DNA from: Flavobacteriales bacterium
Lineage (GTDB): Bacteria > Bacteroidota > Bacteroidia > Flavobacteriales_E > Vicingaceae
NCBI GenBank assembly: GCA_002706365.1
Contig: PALM01000043.1
Coordinates: 1 to 59,403, forward strand
Length of the DNA: 59,403 bases
Direction of reading: 5' to 3'
Under the pieces are notes generated by a model that was not told where the DNA came from, did not search any database, and was given only the letters and a program-made list of their open reading frames with translations. Numbering within the stretch: the first letter of the stretch is position 1; each line of letters begins with the position of its first letter. The translations under genes were made by a program, and so were the position numbers. Positions 35,044 through 42,060 of the stretch are shown here, in pieces.

Positions 35044-36045
35044 ATGCAAATAAAGCCGGAATTACTCAAAACCATTAGAGCTGCAAATCAGGCAGTTATT
35101 CTATCACATCGTTCACCCGATGGAGATTCTATTGGCTCTTCACTTGCCATCTGTCATTTTTTAAATGACTTGGGAGTGAAGGCGAATGTGATCACTCCGG
35201 ATCCGGCACCTGATTTTTTGAGCTGGATAAAGGGATTTGATCAGATGCATAATCATGAGCAGCACTCTTCTGAAGTAGAGGGCATGATTGCAAATTCCGA
35301 TCTCATTTTTTGTCTCGATTTCAATTCACCATCTAGAGTAGGTTCTTTGGAAGAAGCTCTGCAGGCTAATACCAATGCATATCGCATCAATATAGATCAT
35401 CATCAAGAGCCTGAAGACTTTTGCGATCTGCAAATTGTAGACACTTCAGCTAGTTCTACTGCAGAATTGGTTTATCAATTCATCATTGAATTGGCTACCC
35501 TTGAAACCATCGACCTTGCTATGGCCGAAGCAATTTATACAGGTATACTCACAGATACAGGCTCTTTTAGGTTCTCTTCTACTTCGGCAAAGACTCATGA
35601 GATTGCAGCAAGATTGATATCAATTGGTGTACAACCACAGAATGTGCATGCAGCAGTATACGATAGTTATTCTGCAGAGCGTTTAAGACTTCTGGGTTAT
35701 GCATTGAATGAAGGCCTCAAGCTATATGAGAATGATAAGTTGGCCATTATTTCATTAGATGATAGTGTGCTTAAGAAATTCCAATTCAAGAGAGGAGATA
35801 CGGAAGGACTTGTAAATTACCCCTTGAGTATTAAGTCGGTAAAGATTTCCATTCTACTCACTGAAAAGGATGGCAAGATCAAGATGTCGTTTCGTTCGAA
35901 AGGAGATATGGCAGTAAATGGCTTTGCAAGGGATCATTTTGACGGAGGTGGACACATAAATGCTGCCGGTGGTATAAGCCACATTGGAATGCAAGCTACC
36001 ATAGAAAAAATTGAAGGATTGATCGATGAATTGCTTAAAAGCTAA
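35044..36045 (+). CDS. nrnA: DHH/DHHA1 phosphoesterase, NrnA-like
   Basis: 333 residues. The DHH domain shows SHRSPDGDSIGSS near residue 20, a DFNSP motif and IDHHQEPED near 118, which bind two metals; the C-terminal DHHA1 domain has GGGHINAAGG. NrnA enzymes degrade nano-RNA or c-di-nucleotide products and hydrolyse pAp to AMP. All metal ligands are present. It heads an operon with three FKBP lipoproteins; the first begins 1 base after its stop. Confidence 0.9.
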   Translation: MQIKPELLKTIRAANQAVILSHRSPDGDSIGSSLAICHFLNDLGVKANVITPDPAPDFLSWIKGFDQMHNHEQHSSEVEGMIANSDLIFCLDFNSPSRVGSLEEALQANTNAYRINIDHHQEPEDFCDLQIVDTSASSTAELVYQFIIELATLETIDLAMAEAIYTGILTDTGSFRFSSTSAKTHEIAARLISIGVQPQNVHAAVYDSYSAERLRLLGYALNEGLKLYENDKLAIISLDDSVLKKFQFKRGDTEGLVNYPLSIKSVKISILLTEKDGKIKMSFRSKGDMAVNGFARDHFDGGGHINAAGGISHIGMQATIEKIEGLIDELLKS

Positions 36046-36046
36046 T

Positions 36047-36592
36047 ATGACTAGGTTCATTACTGGATCTTTCGCATGCTTTCTAATTGCTTTTTCATTA
36101 ATGGCTTGTGATAATGAGCCTAAAAAGAAGAGCATCCCTCTAAAAGTGCAGAGTAAGAAGGAGTATCAAGACTTGATGATCGAGTCGCACAAAGCCTATC
36201 TTCAAAGAGAAAGGGAAAAGCTGGATCATTTTACAGATTCACTTCCCTATGATTTCGTTCAAACAGAATCGGGTTTGAGGTATACTGTAACCCACACCGA
36301 GAAATCAACTGATAGCATTACAGCCGGAGATATTGCTGTAATCCATTACACCTTGACCCTTCTTAACGGAGATACAGCCTATCAAACATTGACTCAGAAG
36401 CCTCAAGAGTTTATGGTGAATATGGATGATGTGGAAGCCGGATTGCATGAAGGAATACAATATCTGGCAGTAGGAGATAAGGCGATCATGGTGCTGCCTG
36501 CACATTTGGCCCATGGTTTAACGGGGGATCAAGCCGCAATTCCAATTCAAACTCCTGTAGTATACCACCTTGAATTATTGGCTAAGAAATGA
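36047..36592 (+). CDS. FKBP-type lipoprotein, GldI-like
   Basis: 181 residues from ATG 36047. Lipoprotein signal ending LMAC, a charged helix (about 30-60), then an FKBP domain. Relative to FKBP12 several active-site residues are lost: no Phe-Asp pair, no VIPGW and LAHG in place of the AYG turn, so proline isomerase activity is doubtful. GldI, a lipoprotein needed for gliding in F. johnsoniae, has this layout. First of three tandem FKBP genes; overlaps the next by 4 bases (ATGA). Confidence 0.85.
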   Translation: MTRFITGSFACFLIAFSLMACDNEPKKKSIPLKVQSKKEYQDLMIESHKAYLQREREKLDHFTDSLPYDFVQTESGLRYTVTHTEKSTDSITAGDIAVIHYTLTLLNGDTAYQTLTQKPQEFMVNMDDVEAGLHEGIQYLAVGDKAIMVLPAHLAHGLTGDQAAIPIQTPVVYHLELLAKK

Positions 36593-37431
36593 AGCAGTTT
36601 ATTGGAATTCTTGCGCTTGTTTCACTCTTCTTGTTTTCCTGCGAAAGGAGCGAGAAGGAAGAATTTAAGAAAATTGCTGAGGGAGTATCCTATAAGTATT
36701 TGAAGTTTGGCGATGGCGATACTGTGAAGACGGGAGATCATATCATGCTTTACATTACGGTATTGGATGAGAAGAATGACACCCTTCATTATGTGCCTAG
36801 ATATCCATACTTTGTTGAGGTCGGCGATAAGAAGATAGACTCTGTCTGGATGCGAATAGGAGAAGGTGATAGTGTGCACATTAGATGTGATCGCAAATTG
36901 CTCAATCAATATTTGAGATTGTACAATCCCTTGCAGTCGGATGAGGGAGTTGTAGAGATCAGAGCTTCACTTCAAGAGGCTATGTCGGCCGAGGAAGCGA
37001 AAATGAGAAAGGCAGAGGAACTTTCTAAAAGAGAGTTGCAAGAACAACTAGAGTTGAAGAAATATCTCGAAAAGTACGGTCGTGACTTCCAAGAGATCAA
37101 TGGGATCTACAGAAAGATTCTGGAAAGAACGGATGGAGATAGCATCAAATATGGCGATCAATTGAGGGTTGCATACACCGGAAAATTCATGAATGGATAT
37201 GTCTTTGACGATACAGATTCCAAAGGACTAACCCCAACTTTCAGATATGGAGAAGATTTTCAGCTTTTAGAAGGGGTTCAAAGTGGATTAAAGGGCATGA
37301 AAGAAGGTGAAAGCGTTAAAATAATATTACCTTCGCGCCGAGCTTTTGGAGAGAAGGGTTCTTTAGCTGGAATTGTTCCTCCATATACCTCAGTAATATT
37401 TGAAATTAAGATCTTAAAAATTGAAAAGTAA
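36589..37431 (+). CDS. Two-domain FKBP-type lipoprotein, divergent
   Basis: 280 residues: lipoprotein signal (LFSC), a first degenerate FKBP domain (about 25-125), a charged linker helix (130-165) and a second FKBP domain (170-280). The second keeps VAYTGKFMNGYVFDD but has LLEGVQSGL where active enzymes have VIPGW, and RAFGEKG for AYG. It is likely a chaperone rather than a fast isomerase (inference). It starts inside the stop of the previous gene and is followed by the third FKBP gene after 7 bases. Confidence 0.85.
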   Translation: MKQFIGILALVSLFLFSCERSEKEEFKKIAEGVSYKYLKFGDGDTVKTGDHIMLYITVLDEKNDTLHYVPRYPYFVEVGDKKIDSVWMRIGEGDSVHIRCDRKLLNQYLRLYNPLQSDEGVVEIRASLQEAMSAEEAKMRKAEELSKRELQEQLELKKYLEKYGRDFQEINGIYRKILERTDGDSIKYGDQLRVAYTGKFMNGYVFDDTDSKGLTPTFRYGEDFQLLEGVQSGLKGMKEGESVKIILPSRRAFGEKGSLAGIVPPYTSVIFEIKILKIEK

Positions 37432-37438
37432 TAGCAAA

Positions 37439-38362
37439 ATGAAGAATTTATTAGCCGCTGTTTTATTGTTGTCATTGGGAGTATTGGTTTCCTGTGGTCA
37501 GAAGGAGATGAGCAGATTCCCAGATTATACAAAATTGCAAGATAATCTGTACATCAAGTACTTCACTCAGAACCAAGAAGGAAGAGAAGTACAACAAGGA
37601 GATGTAGTGACTTTGAACATGAAATACACTACTGAAGACGATTCTGTATTGTTTGAATCAGGTGCAGGTCAGCCGCCAATTCAGGTGCCAGCTGATACCG
37701 CTAAATACCCTGGTGATTTCATGGGCGTATTCATTGGAATGCACAAAGGTGATAGCGCTTCTGTATTGGTAAACGCAGACACTTTCTTTATTAAAACTGC
37801 AGGAATGCCTCAAAGCCCAAACTTTATTGATTCTGGTAGTGTGTTGAAATTCACGATTGCCGTTCTAGAAGTACAATCAATGGAGGAAATGCAAGCTGTG
37901 AAAGCTAAGGAAGCTGAAGCGAAGCAAGCTGATGAGATGGCTCAACTAAGCCAGTATATTCAAGAAAATAACATTACTGTAGAGCCAACTTCTACTGGAA
38001 TGTACTACATCAGCCGTAATAAAGGTGCGGGTAAGCAAGCTGAAGCTGGTAAAAAGGTGAAAGTGAATTACTCAGGTCGTTTGATCAACGGACAATATTT
38101 TGATACTTCTATTGAAGAAGTAGCAAAAGCTCAAGGCCTGTACGATGAGAGAAGAACTTATCAGCCTCTTGAATTCACACTGGGTCAAGGCCAAGTAATT
38201 CCAGGATGGGATGAAGGTATTGCCAAGATGAAAGAAGGTGAAAAAGCTACTTTAATTATTCCTTCTAAATTGGCTTATGGTGCGAACCCTAGACCAGGTG
38301 GAGTAATTCAACCATTCAATACTTTGATCTTCGAAGTTGAATTGATCGAAGTGATGGACTAA
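37439..38362 (+). CDS. FKBP-type peptidyl-prolyl isomerase lipoprotein
   Basis: 307 residues from ATG 37439 (a TTG 18 bases upstream is less likely). Lipoprotein signal ending LVSC, an N-terminal divergent FKBP-like domain (about 25-140), a helix (145-180) and a C-terminal domain with a full active site: VNYSGRLINGQYFDTS, QVIPGWDEG, KLAYGANP, PFNTLIFEVEL. This one should be an active periplasmic-side isomerase. The operon ends at the terminator 38391-38432. Confidence 0.9.
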   Translation: MKNLLAAVLLLSLGVLVSCGQKEMSRFPDYTKLQDNLYIKYFTQNQEGREVQQGDVVTLNMKYTTEDDSVLFESGAGQPPIQVPADTAKYPGDFMGVFIGMHKGDSASVLVNADTFFIKTAGMPQSPNFIDSGSVLKFTIAVLEVQSMEEMQAVKAKEAEAKQADEMAQLSQYIQENNITVEPTSTGMYYISRNKGAGKQAEAGKKVKVNYSGRLINGQYFDTSIEEVAKAQGLYDERRTYQPLEFTLGQGQVIPGWDEGIAKMKEGEKATLIIPSKLAYGANPRPGGVIQPFNTLIFEVELIEVMD

Positions 38363-38541: not shown

Positions 38542-40104
38542 ATGGAAAAATACGACTTGTGCGTGATTGGTGGAGGACCTGCAGGATATGCTGCGGCGAT
38601 GCGAGCAATCGATTTTGGTAAAAAGGTTCTTCTTGTGGAGAAGTCAAAACTAGGAGGTTATGGCATCTATGATGGTGCTTTGGCTTCAAAAACCATGTGG
38701 GAACTATCTAATAAAGCCAAGACGGTAAAGGATGAGATCGGCCAAGACAAACGTTTAGACCTTCCCTTTAGCAAAGTAAAAGAGATCATTGATGAGGCGC
38801 TTTTCGAAAGAAAGTTTCAATTGTCTTGTCATTTAAGAATCATCCATGCCGAAACAAGTCTGATCAATTACGAAAAAGGAACAGCGAGCTTTGTTTCAGA
38901 TAAAGAGATCCTAATTACCAAAGAAGACGGTAATTCATTTCAAATCCATGCAGAAAACACCATAATTGCCTCAGGTTCTCGTCCTAGGACTTTACCGGAT
39001 ATCAAAGTTGATGAAGATGTGATTCTCACTTCTGATGGAATTCTACATTTGGATGAATTTCCCAAGAGCATGGTAATCTTGGGTGCAGGGGTGATTGGTT
39101 GTGAATTCGCAACCATGTTCTCAAATTTTGGTCAGACCAAAGTCTATTTGATCGATAAGGCAGATCGCATCTTGCCTTTTGAAGATAAGGATGTAGCTGA
39201 TCTAGTAGCCACAAACCTTGAAGAGAATGGGGTGGTAATTCACCGTGGAGCCCAGTTAATCCGAATGGATCACCTAGGCAATGAGGTAGAGTACGAGATC
39301 GAGAATCCGGATGGAAGTAGAGAGGTTATTCGCGTTGAAAAGGCAATGCTTTCTATTGGAAGGGTTCCAAATATTGAAGATCTGAAGTTAGAGAATGCCA
39401 ATGTGCAAATGAGCAAAAGAGGTGTTCATATTGGCGATGAAGATACACGCACCAATGTTCCGAATATATATGCGGTAGGTGATGTTTCCGGTCATCTTGC
39501 ACTCGTGAATGTTGGCGAAAGAGAAGCTAGACATGCAGTAGTGAAGATGTTTGGTGACTTTCCTGTTAAACCAATCCACTACGAAAACATCAGTACCATC
39601 ATGTTCCTTAATCCTGAGGTAGCTGCTGTGGGACTAAACGAGCAAAAGGCTGAAGAATTGGGAATTCCCATTCGCGTATCAAAAGTTGATTACTCTACAA
39701 TTGCTAGGGCAATTGCAATGCGCAAGACGAATGGGTTTTTCAAGATCATTGTCTCAGATGACGAAGAAATGAAAGTCCTCGGTATGCGTGCTATTGGAGA
39801 GCACGCTTCTAGTGCAATACAATCGGTTTCTTTATTGATGTATATGAATAAGGGAATTGATGAATTGGCTCATATGATTCACCCTCACCCTTCAATCGTA
39901 GAAGGTGTTCAAGAATGTGTGAGAATGCTATTGGGTAAGTCAGTTTACAAATCCTCTATCTTCAAAGACAAACTGAAGTGCTATAGAAGAACCGTAGCAG
40001 GTGAAAAATTGCCATTACATGTCTTGAGAGCTAAGGAGCAAGATGTGGATAACCAAGACGACCTCAAGAAGATTGCTCAGATCAATAAGAGCAATATCCG
40101 TTAA
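38542..40104 (+). CDS. Dihydrolipoamide-dehydrogenase-like flavoprotein without redox cysteines
   Basis: 520 residues of the class I pyridine-nucleotide disulphide oxidoreductase family. FAD motif GGGPAG (10-15), NAD motif ILGAGVIGCEFA (about 183), second FAD motif NIYAVGDV, and the dimerisation domain with HPHPSIVEG. The redox pair (C-x4-C) is missing: the aligned stretch is GGYGIYDGALASK (38-50), with Gly41 and Ala46 where the cysteines should be. It cannot act as a normal dithiol enzyme. Soluble transhydrogenase (SthA) also lacks the pair and is the best functional analogue, but this is inference. The C-terminal 45 residues extend past the usual end. Its stop is shared with the convergent gene (TTAA). 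Confidence 0.85.
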   Translation: MEKYDLCVIGGGPAGYAAAMRAIDFGKKVLLVEKSKLGGYGIYDGALASKTMWELSNKAKTVKDEIGQDKRLDLPFSKVKEIIDEALFERKFQLSCHLRIIHAETSLINYEKGTASFVSDKEILITKEDGNSFQIHAENTIIASGSRPRTLPDIKVDEDVILTSDGILHLDEFPKSMVILGAGVIGCEFATMFSNFGQTKVYLIDKADRILPFEDKDVADLVATNLEENGVVIHRGAQLIRMDHLGNEVEYEIENPDGSREVIRVEKAMLSIGRVPNIEDLKLENANVQMSKRGVHIGDEDTRTNVPNIYAVGDVSGHLALVNVGEREARHAVVKMFGDFPVKPIHYENISTIMFLNPEVAAVGLNEQKAEELGIPIRVSKVDYSTIARAIAMRKTNGFFKIIVSDDEEMKVLGMRAIGEHASSAIQSVSLLMYMNKGIDELAHMIHPHPSIVEGVQECVRMLLGKSVYKSSIFKDKLKCYRRTVAGEKLPLHVLRAKEQDVDNQDDLKKIAQINKSNIR

Positions 40105-41261
40105 GGACGGAAATCAGGATTATTTACGAATACTGTATCAGTAATAGTCTTTAAAAAGGCTACCAAATCCGCTTTTTCCTGTGTGGTAAGATTGGGATTT
40201 ACGAATCCTCTATCAGCCATTAGAGGGTCTGTAAGAGGTCCATCCTGAACTCCTGTGCTGTAGAATTCTACCACTTCTTCAAGAGTCTGGAATCTTCCAT
40301 CGTGCATATAAGGTGCAGTATATACCAGATTCCTCAATGAGGGTGTCTTGAATTTGCCTACATCTGATGCTTTCTTAGTCACCAAAGCCAAACCAGAGTC
40401 TGGGTTTAAGTCAAGACCATTATTCCTGAATTCAAAATCAGTCCAAAGTGGATTCCTCAAATTCACATTGCCATGACAATGAAAGCAATCACCTTTTGCG
40501 GTTGAAACATAGATGTTGAATCCTCTTAATTCTTGGGCTGTTAAATCTGAACTACCAGGAGGGTTCAAATTCAATAATTCTTTCACATACTCATCCATTC
40601 TGGAGTCACCACTAATTAGGGTGCGCTCAAATTGAGCAATGGCTTTTACCACTAATGTGGAGTCGATCACATTAGTGCCAAATGCAGCTTCAAACATTGG
40701 TGGATACATCGCATCATTTTGAAGCTTATTCACCACATTGGGCCATGTTTCTCCCATTTCAAAATGAATGGTCACAGGCTCTAAAGCTTGATCTTCTAGG
40801 CTTTCGGCAGATCCTCGCCAATTGAATTTTGAGTCGAATGTGGGTGTCCAGGCAAGATTGAATAAGGGCATGGCATTTCTGGTGCCCGTTAGTCCATTGA
40901 TACCGGTACTTACAGCTTTCCCCGGATCGTTAAAGGCGCTTTCCGGACGGTGACAGCTAGCACATGATATCTGATTTGTGGCCGATAATTTTTTTTCGAA
41001 GAATAGTTTCTTACCTAAGGCAATTCCTTCAACTGTCAGTGGGTTGTCTTCTGGTAGAGTTGGGCCAAAAATGATGGAAAAATGCTCTGGAAGCTCTAAA
41101 ATATAAGGAGTTGGTTGATGAGAAGGAGGTGGGTCAGTGCCATCAGGAGTATCTTCCTTGTCTTTACGACAAGCGATACTAAGCAAAACGATAAGCGCAA
41201 AGAATATTGCGCTTACCCTTATGCTAAAAAGTTTATTCAATTGTAAAAACCGACGGTCCAT
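40101..41261 (-). CDS. Dihaem cytochrome c peroxidase/MauG family lipoprotein (MbnH-like)
   Basis: 386 residues. Lipobox LSIAC (Cys31), then two c-type haem sites CASCH (100-104) and CFHCH (259-263), and YMHDG (318-322), where the family often has a haem ligand. Members reduce hydrogen peroxide or, like MauG and MbnH, oxidise residues of a partner protein. The gene overlaps by 29 bases the upstream MbnP-like gene, so the pair looks like MbnP/MbnH: MbnH converts a tryptophan of MbnP to kynurenine to build a copper site. A TTG at 41240 is an alternative start. Confidence 0.88.
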   Translation of the reverse strand: MDRRFLQLNKLFSIRVSAIFFALIVLLSIACRKDKEDTPDGTDPPPSHQPTPYILELPEHFSIIFGPTLPEDNPLTVEGIALGKKLFFEKKLSATNQISCASCHRPESAFNDPGKAVSTGINGLTGTRNAMPLFNLAWTPTFDSKFNWRGSAESLEDQALEPVTIHFEMGETWPNVVNKLQNDAMYPPMFEAAFGTNVIDSTLVVKAIAQFERTLISGDSRMDEYVKELLNLNPPGSSDLTAQELRGFNIYVSTAKGDCFHCHGNVNLRNPLWTDFEFRNNGLDLNPDSGLALVTKKASDVGKFKTPSLRNLVYTAPYMHDGRFQTLEEVVEFYSTGVQDGPLTDPLMADRGFVNPNLTTQEKADLVAFLKTITDTVFVNNPDFRP

Positions 41262-42060
41262 TCAGATTCAACTTACGCTGAGCATCATAATTCGGCATAA
41301 TCATCACATTATACACATTGAAGTCCCACTGATATGGATCTTCATACCATTGCTCAACATTCATAACAATATTCAGTTCAAAATCTCCATCTACAGTCAG
41401 TGGACTAATAGTAGGATAGGCTACAAAGTGATTGTCCTCGTAAGTAGTTGGCGTTACATTATTGTTTCTTGCAGTTCCCATATGGGTAAGGAACCTCTTT
41501 TCAACTCCCAATGAGTCGTAATTTCCTTCCAATTGCATGAAGTGATAACCTCCACCTAGATTAGGAGTTCCACCAATTCCAGATGGCCAAGCCCAACTTA
41601 AAGCATTTAGATCCGGATAAGCTCCACTGATGTTGTCGAATCTGTCAAATCCAAACTTGAATGAAACCATTTCATAGGTCCCAGCTGGGATTTCTGCAGT
41701 TGGTGCATATGTGAAAGTTGAACTATCGCTAGCATCTACAAAATGATAACCATCAATTGTAAATGAACTTCCATTATCCATATGGAATGTAATATCTGAG
41801 ATCAAGTAACGCAACCTGGTCACGTTGAAGTCTTGTCCGGCCTCATTGGTATAGGGCTTTCCTGCAGTACTCATTTGTAGGTCCATTCCATTGGCTTTCT
41901 GAGACATGCGGAAGGTAGCATTGTATGTCGGTACTTCTTTTTCGACAAAAACTCTTTCGATTGCAGGCTCTTCATCATCCTCACAAGATCCCAATGATAA
42001 CATTGCCGAAGAGGCGATAAATAGGGCAATTAATTTTAAGCTTGATTTGATTCTTTTCAT
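41233..42060 (-). CDS. MbnP-like copper-binding lipoprotein
   Basis: 275 residues. Lipoprotein signal ending LGSC (Cys26), then a single beta-rich domain. The stretch ALSWAWPSG (Trp156, Trp158) followed by GGGYHFMQLEGNY matches the W-W...GY-F--EG pattern I associate with the MbnP family; one tryptophan there is oxidised to kynurenine in the studied protein. Translationally coupled to the dihaem enzyme gene. No methanobactin precursor or transporter gene is nearby, so it would work outside that pathway, perhaps in copper storage or sensing at the envelope. Confidence 0.8.
   Translation of the reverse strand: MKRIKSSLKLIALFIASSAMLSLGSCEDDEEPAIERVFVEKEVPTYNATFRMSQKANGMDLQMSTAGKPYTNEAGQDFNVTRLRYLISDITFHMDNGSSFTIDGYHFVDASDSSTFTYAPTAEIPAGTYEMVSFKFGFDRFDNISGAYPDLNALSWAWPSGIGGTPNLGGGYHFMQLEGNYDSLGVEKRFLTHMGTARNNNVTPTTYEDNHFVAYPTISPLTVDGDFELNIVMNVEQWYEDPYQWDFNVYNVMIMPNYDAQRKLNLNGPSVFTIE

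Follow-up and report, generated by a model that had tools for sequence, protein, structure and literature searches.

Two adjacent genes on the minus strand of the window, the whole 59,403-nucleotide stretch of DNA analysed here, encode an MbnP-like lipoprotein of 275 residues (P0001; positions 41233–42060) and an MbnH/MauG-like dihaem lipoprotein of 386 residues (P0002; positions 40101–41261). The pair is a divergent, lipid-anchored member of the MbnP/MbnH family that lacks the four-cysteine motif, and not a new kind of system. Taken as a whole, the evidence is probably best explained by a Bacteroidota version of MbnP/MbnH, in which the dihaem enzyme would make kynurenine at Trp156 of its partner and the MbnP-like protein would then bind copper, for handling of the metal in the envelope without methanobactin.

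A tightly linked gene pair

The original prediction described the two genes as coupled by a 29-base overlap, and both open reading frames are indeed found to share positions 41233–41261 on the minus strand. The exact size of the overlap is open to the choice of start codon, because translation of the dihaem gene from a TTG at its codon 8 would leave 8 nt. In relatives from the same family the spacing between the MbnP gene and the dihaem gene ranges from −29 to +134 nt; the overlap was therefore rejected as a signal in its own right and is read as tight linkage only. The pair sits between a gene for an Lpd-like flavoprotein and miaA, both of which recur as neighbours in many relatives, and a UvrD/AddA-like helicase gene is also found in its neighbourhood; no copper-related gene flanks the pair within the window. 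Three consecutive genes for FKBP-type prolyl isomerase-like lipoproteins (36026–38362) adjoin the Lpd-like gene, and similar neighbours occur in relatives.

The MbnP-like lipoprotein

The family assignment is clear at the level of Pfam, where the MbnP-like protein matches PF20243 with 95.9 bits (E 3.7e-27; gathering cut-off 27). Against the narrower NCBIfam equivalog TIGR04052 (MbnP_like_WxW) it scores 14.2 bits (E 0.022), which misses the curated cut-off of 140. The four-cysteine motif that gave TIGR04052 its older name, “metallo-mystery pair system four-Cys motif protein”, is absent, the sole cysteine being that of the lipobox, whereas the Methylosinus homologues of MbnP carry the extra cysteines.

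A search of the PDB with the single sequence gave no match, and a profile built from 33 relatives found one relevant entry, 7l6g (MbnP of Methylosinus trichosporium OB3b), at E 0.004, so a comparison of folds was needed. In the profile alignment the WxW motif falls on the WxW of 7l6g (MAWNW) and His-Met-Gly on its His-Val-Gly. The AlphaFold model has a mean pLDDT of 84.8 and is weak at residues 157–171 (pLDDT <50), which adjoin the WxW motif. In a fold search this model matches 7l6g with a Z-score of 15.1 over 206 residues (3.5 Å), the next entry being unrelated with a Z-score of 4.6, and 7l6g is also the top hit in Foldseek (E 2.4e-08). Matches of the model to folds other than MbnP had Z-scores below 5 and were not used. 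The window protein resembles 7l6g (TIGR04052/PF20243) in its fold, in the WxW and His-x-Gly motifs, in a C-terminal methionine and in the adjacent dihaem gene. It differs from the Methylosinus protein in being a lipoprotein without the four cysteines and outside a methanobactin operon, and the two share 13–16% identity over the aligned part.

The signal peptide (41986–42060) bears the lipobox LSLGSC, and its Cys26 (41983–41985), conserved in 36 of 47 relatives, is followed by the acidic stretch EDDEE. The tryptophans of the original prediction are present as W156-A-W158 (41587–41595), aligned with MAWNW of 7l6g. Their loss from orthologues had been named in advance as grounds for giving the idea up, and they turned out to be conserved: of the MbnP proteins of the host’s family 44/47 have W156 and 43/47 have W158, and WxW is present in 30/30 phylum-wide loci, these being the highest-scoring loci and not a random draw. 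His193 (41482–41484), a predicted copper ligand, is found in 45 of the 47 relatives, its HMG aligning with HVG of 7l6g and with HxGST of Methylosinus MbnP, and G137 and N143 are invariant (47/47). Met255 (41296–41298) is the predicted second ligand. The alignment at this C-terminal site was read by eye and not scored automatically; across the 47 relatives it has either Met (IMP, VMS) or His (THAT, YHGE, GHGG), according to the subgroup, where Methylosinus MbnP has GCMS. The sole exception is a degenerate MbnP paralogue (L075:3846-4685), adjoined by an intact pair, which has lost both tryptophans, the histidine and the C-terminal Met/His together, as expected if these residues form one site.

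In MbnP, the first tryptophan of WxW is reportedly converted to kynurenine, and Cu(I) is reported to be bound by a histidine, a methionine and a solvent molecule, close to the kynurenine (Manesis et al., PNAS 2021). W156, H193 and M255 are the predicted counterparts of these site residues. By this analogy the predicted kynurenine site is narrowed from “Trp156 or Trp158” to Trp156, the first of the two. A further candidate copper ligand, the methionine two residues before the first tryptophan (GMAWNW), was discarded, as the window’s subgroup lacks it and position 255 is Met or His. Two MbnP proteins (L047:4901-5635 and L049:4966-5700) contain only one tryptophan of the motif (MYWPDH) but have an intact dihaem partner.

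The dihaem enzyme is of the MauG/MbnH type

The second protein matches Pfam CCP_MauG with 176.9 bits (E 5.1e-52), in agreement with the MauG/CcP-type assignment made from the sequence at the outset. Its best NCBIfam model is TIGR04039, “MbnH family di-heme enzyme” (252.1 bits, E 7e-75), whose curated cut-off of 362.85 it does not reach. Since both narrower NCBIfam cut-offs are missed, the window proteins are regarded as divergent members of the broad family. The closest solved structure is 6e1c, the MbnH of Methylosinus trichosporium OB3b, by all three approaches used: it scores 177 bits by single sequence against 109 for the next entry and 297 by profile against 223, and it ranks first by fold (E 4.8e-19).

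The features expected of an MbnH/MauG enzyme in the broad sense are found, and they are shared with 6e1c: two c-type haem sites, an inter-haem tryptophan, a tyrosine ligand and an adjoining MbnP gene. The first haem-c site, C100-A-S-C103-H104 (40950–40964), is invariant in 55/55 relatives, as are C259, C262 and H263 of the second, C259-F-H-C262-H263 (40473–40487). Trp148 (40818–40820), aligned with the inter-haem tryptophan of 6e1c and with the FWDGRA motif of peroxidases, is Trp in 45/55, and seven paralogues have Arg at this position. Tyr334 (40260–40262) is the predicted axial ligand of the six-coordinate haem; it is Tyr in 55/55 and aligns with a tyrosine of 6e1c and with the methionine of the bacterial cytochrome c peroxidase 4aal, so that the Met axial ligand of such peroxidases is absent from the window protein. 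Unlike the Methylosinus enzyme, with which it has 33–35% identity in the structural alignment, the window enzyme is a lipoprotein, with the lipobox LLSIAC at the end of its signal peptide (41169–41261) and Cys31 kept in 48/55 relatives.

The protein could in principle be an ordinary cytochrome c peroxidase that removes peroxide, with an MbnP-like neighbour unrelated to its activity, as CCP_MauG is its Pfam domain and peroxidases are the next best structures after 6e1c. This is highly improbable, however: the peroxidase methionine is replaced by tyrosine in 55/55, every peroxidase ranks below MbnH by sequence and by fold, and pairing with MbnP is nearly universal. The replacement of the methionine by Tyr334, together with the first rank of 6e1c by sequence, profile and fold, places the protein with MauG and MbnH and not with the peroxidases.

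A comparison with MauG of methylamine dehydrogenase raises a different alternative. MauG is likewise a dihaem enzyme with an axial tyrosine (Tyr294), and it modifies tryptophan, a principle that would extend to the window enzyme; it acts on another substrate and makes another product (TTQ), and the window enzyme is less similar to it than to MbnH. The dihaem protein might, by oxidation, turn Trp156 and Trp158 together into a TTQ-like redox cofactor, either cross-linked or hydroxylated, and its partner would then be an electron carrier and not a copper protein. The conservation of both tryptophans (43–44 of 47) and the close homology to MauG, with the same type of tyrosine ligand, agree with such a product. 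We nevertheless consider it unlikely, as conservation extends to His193 and Met/His255 next to the tryptophan pair, the fold of the partner is that of MbnP, and W158 has been lost with W156 retained in two relatives (L055:4915 and L064).

Location, distribution and the absence of methanobactin genes

Both proteins carry lipoboxes, as originally predicted, and are probably exported and lipid-anchored. The mature N-termini would be CEDDEE for the MbnP-like protein and CRKDKED for the dihaem protein. In some Bacteroidota an acidic stretch after the lipoprotein cysteine is a surface-export signal (PMC5080379); the resemblance of the two N-termini to this signal is suggestive only, and the acidic stretches are weaker in many relatives.

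The statement that no methanobactin genes are near the pair was corroborated: the window contains none, including no mbnB-type gene, and a search of the whole genome for PF05114 (MbnB/TglH/ChrH) gave no match with positive controls found. This absence is ordinary, given that conservation of the pair extends well past the organisms that make methanobactin, as a 2013 paper already stated (PMC3621798), and that such pairs are common in Bacteroidota without methanobactin genes. PF20243 is present in 97/395 Bacteroidota genomes and in 40/46 genomes of the host’s family, where the dihaem gene directly follows 42 of the 47 MbnP genes; in the 30 phylum-wide loci, selected by highest score and not drawn at random, the dihaem gene is adjacent and on the same strand every time. 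Being a lipoprotein is also the norm for MbnP in Bacteroidota, with a simple lipobox pattern in most MbnPs of the 30 loci. No relative of the MbnP-like protein was found in viral contigs. What endures of the original interpretation is therefore the homology, the pairing and the parts list for a kynurenine/copper site, borne out by conservation, fold and adjacency; the weight it had put on the missing methanobactin genes and on the lipoprotein nature of both partners has been given up, the location outside a methanobactin operon being neither special nor a new observation.

Upstream genes in relatives and a second locus in the same genome

Many members of the family have two further genes directly upstream of MbnP (examples are L054:3369-4859, L068:5763-7167, L046, L058, L065 and L076, among others). 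One encodes a small protein with the pattern FC[IV]NK...CxGKCHL and the other a protein of about 330 residues in which a signal peptide is followed by CDLCS, and which we guess from its sequence to be a β-barrel. No Pfam or NCBIfam model matches either protein above its cut-off. In a search of 46 family genomes the small cysteine protein was found in 28 and the barrel-like protein in 23, and neither is present in the window’s genus (two genomes), so the window carries a shorter form of the locus.

With these genes missing throughout the genus, and with broken remnants of the barrel-like gene elsewhere in the family (G034 and G036), the pair in the window might itself be a remnant, decaying or taken over for another task after the loss of its upstream partners. 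This is unlikely, as the site residues are all intact both in the window and in the genus-mate L040, the nonsynonymous divergence is ~0.28 with synonymous sites saturated, and the pair also stands alone in other relatives.

The same genome has a second locus on contig C20 (L038:8021-11116), where an MbnP (L038:10166-11116) with a T9SS type-A sorting tail (PF18962) precedes two dihaem genes, and the product of the second has Arg in place of the inter-haem tryptophan. Seven loci whose MbnP has a long, T9SS-like C-terminal tail (L038, L042, L043, L045, L060, L066 and L072) each encode one dihaem protein with this Trp-to-Arg change, which occurs at no other locus. At L042, L043, L045 and L072 a small protein of the HYC_CC_PP family is encoded ~400 bases upstream of the T9SS-tailed MbnP, and may resemble the copper-responsive CruR (DUF2946) leaders described elsewhere (PMC9426467). 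On contig C36 the genome also encodes a 605-residue CCP_MauG-domain protein with an N-terminal extension (L039:7216-9033), which has no MbnP neighbour and has Tyr in place of the inter-haem tryptophan.

A broader proposal, which we put forward tentatively, is that in Bacteroidota a lipoprotein with a kynurenine-copper site and the dihaem enzyme that matures it make up a copper module that is displayed on the cell surface and works without methanobactin. Ancestrally, this module might have included the small cysteine protein (FCINKE...CxGKCHL) and the CDLCS β-barrel-like protein of no known family, and two dihaem enzymes, of which one has lost the inter-haem tryptophan, would act for a second, T9SS-exported MbnP in the same genome.

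A proposed copper-site maturation

In the preferred reading, that of a Bacteroidota MbnP/MbnH pair, the dihaem enzyme would be activated by peroxide or oxygen, and its haems, linked through Trp148, would oxidise the partner’s Trp156 to kynurenine. Once matured, the MbnP-like protein would bind one copper ion, probably as Cu(I), with His193, Met255 and the kynurenine making up the site. It may then serve in copper handling in the envelope without methanobactin, either in uptake or in delivery to the haem-copper oxidases, of which the genome encodes two as possible clients. A search for nitrous oxide reductase as another client gave no match, and its control gave none either. MbnPH-like genes are reported from copper operons elsewhere (PMC9426467). 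A similar arrangement is known from MopE/CorA with SACCP/CorB, where a surface protein has a copper site with a kynurenine made from tryptophan and the dihaem protein is co-transcribed; for CorA, whose gene is accompanied by that for CorB, crystallography shows a Kyn/2-His Cu(I) site (PMC3912023). MopE/CorA differ from the pair described here in belonging to another sequence family, to which no match was found, and in using two histidine ligands. Several points count against the preferred reading: there is no adjacent copper gene, the two upstream partner genes of relatives are missing, the MbnP-like protein lacks the four cysteines and scores 14 bits against the NCBIfam MbnP model, its model has low pLDDT at residues 157–171, and a few relatives are without one tryptophan.

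Systems in which a metal site is built by one protein oxidising a tryptophan of another are few, and MbnP/MbnH is among them. The window pair by itself changes little: it adds a divergent, lipid-anchored branch that is common in Bacteroidota, and the upstream gene pair and the second, T9SS-tailed locus are more interesting leads. From a cultivable member of this branch one could learn whether kynurenine-copper sites are of general use for taking up or delivering copper.
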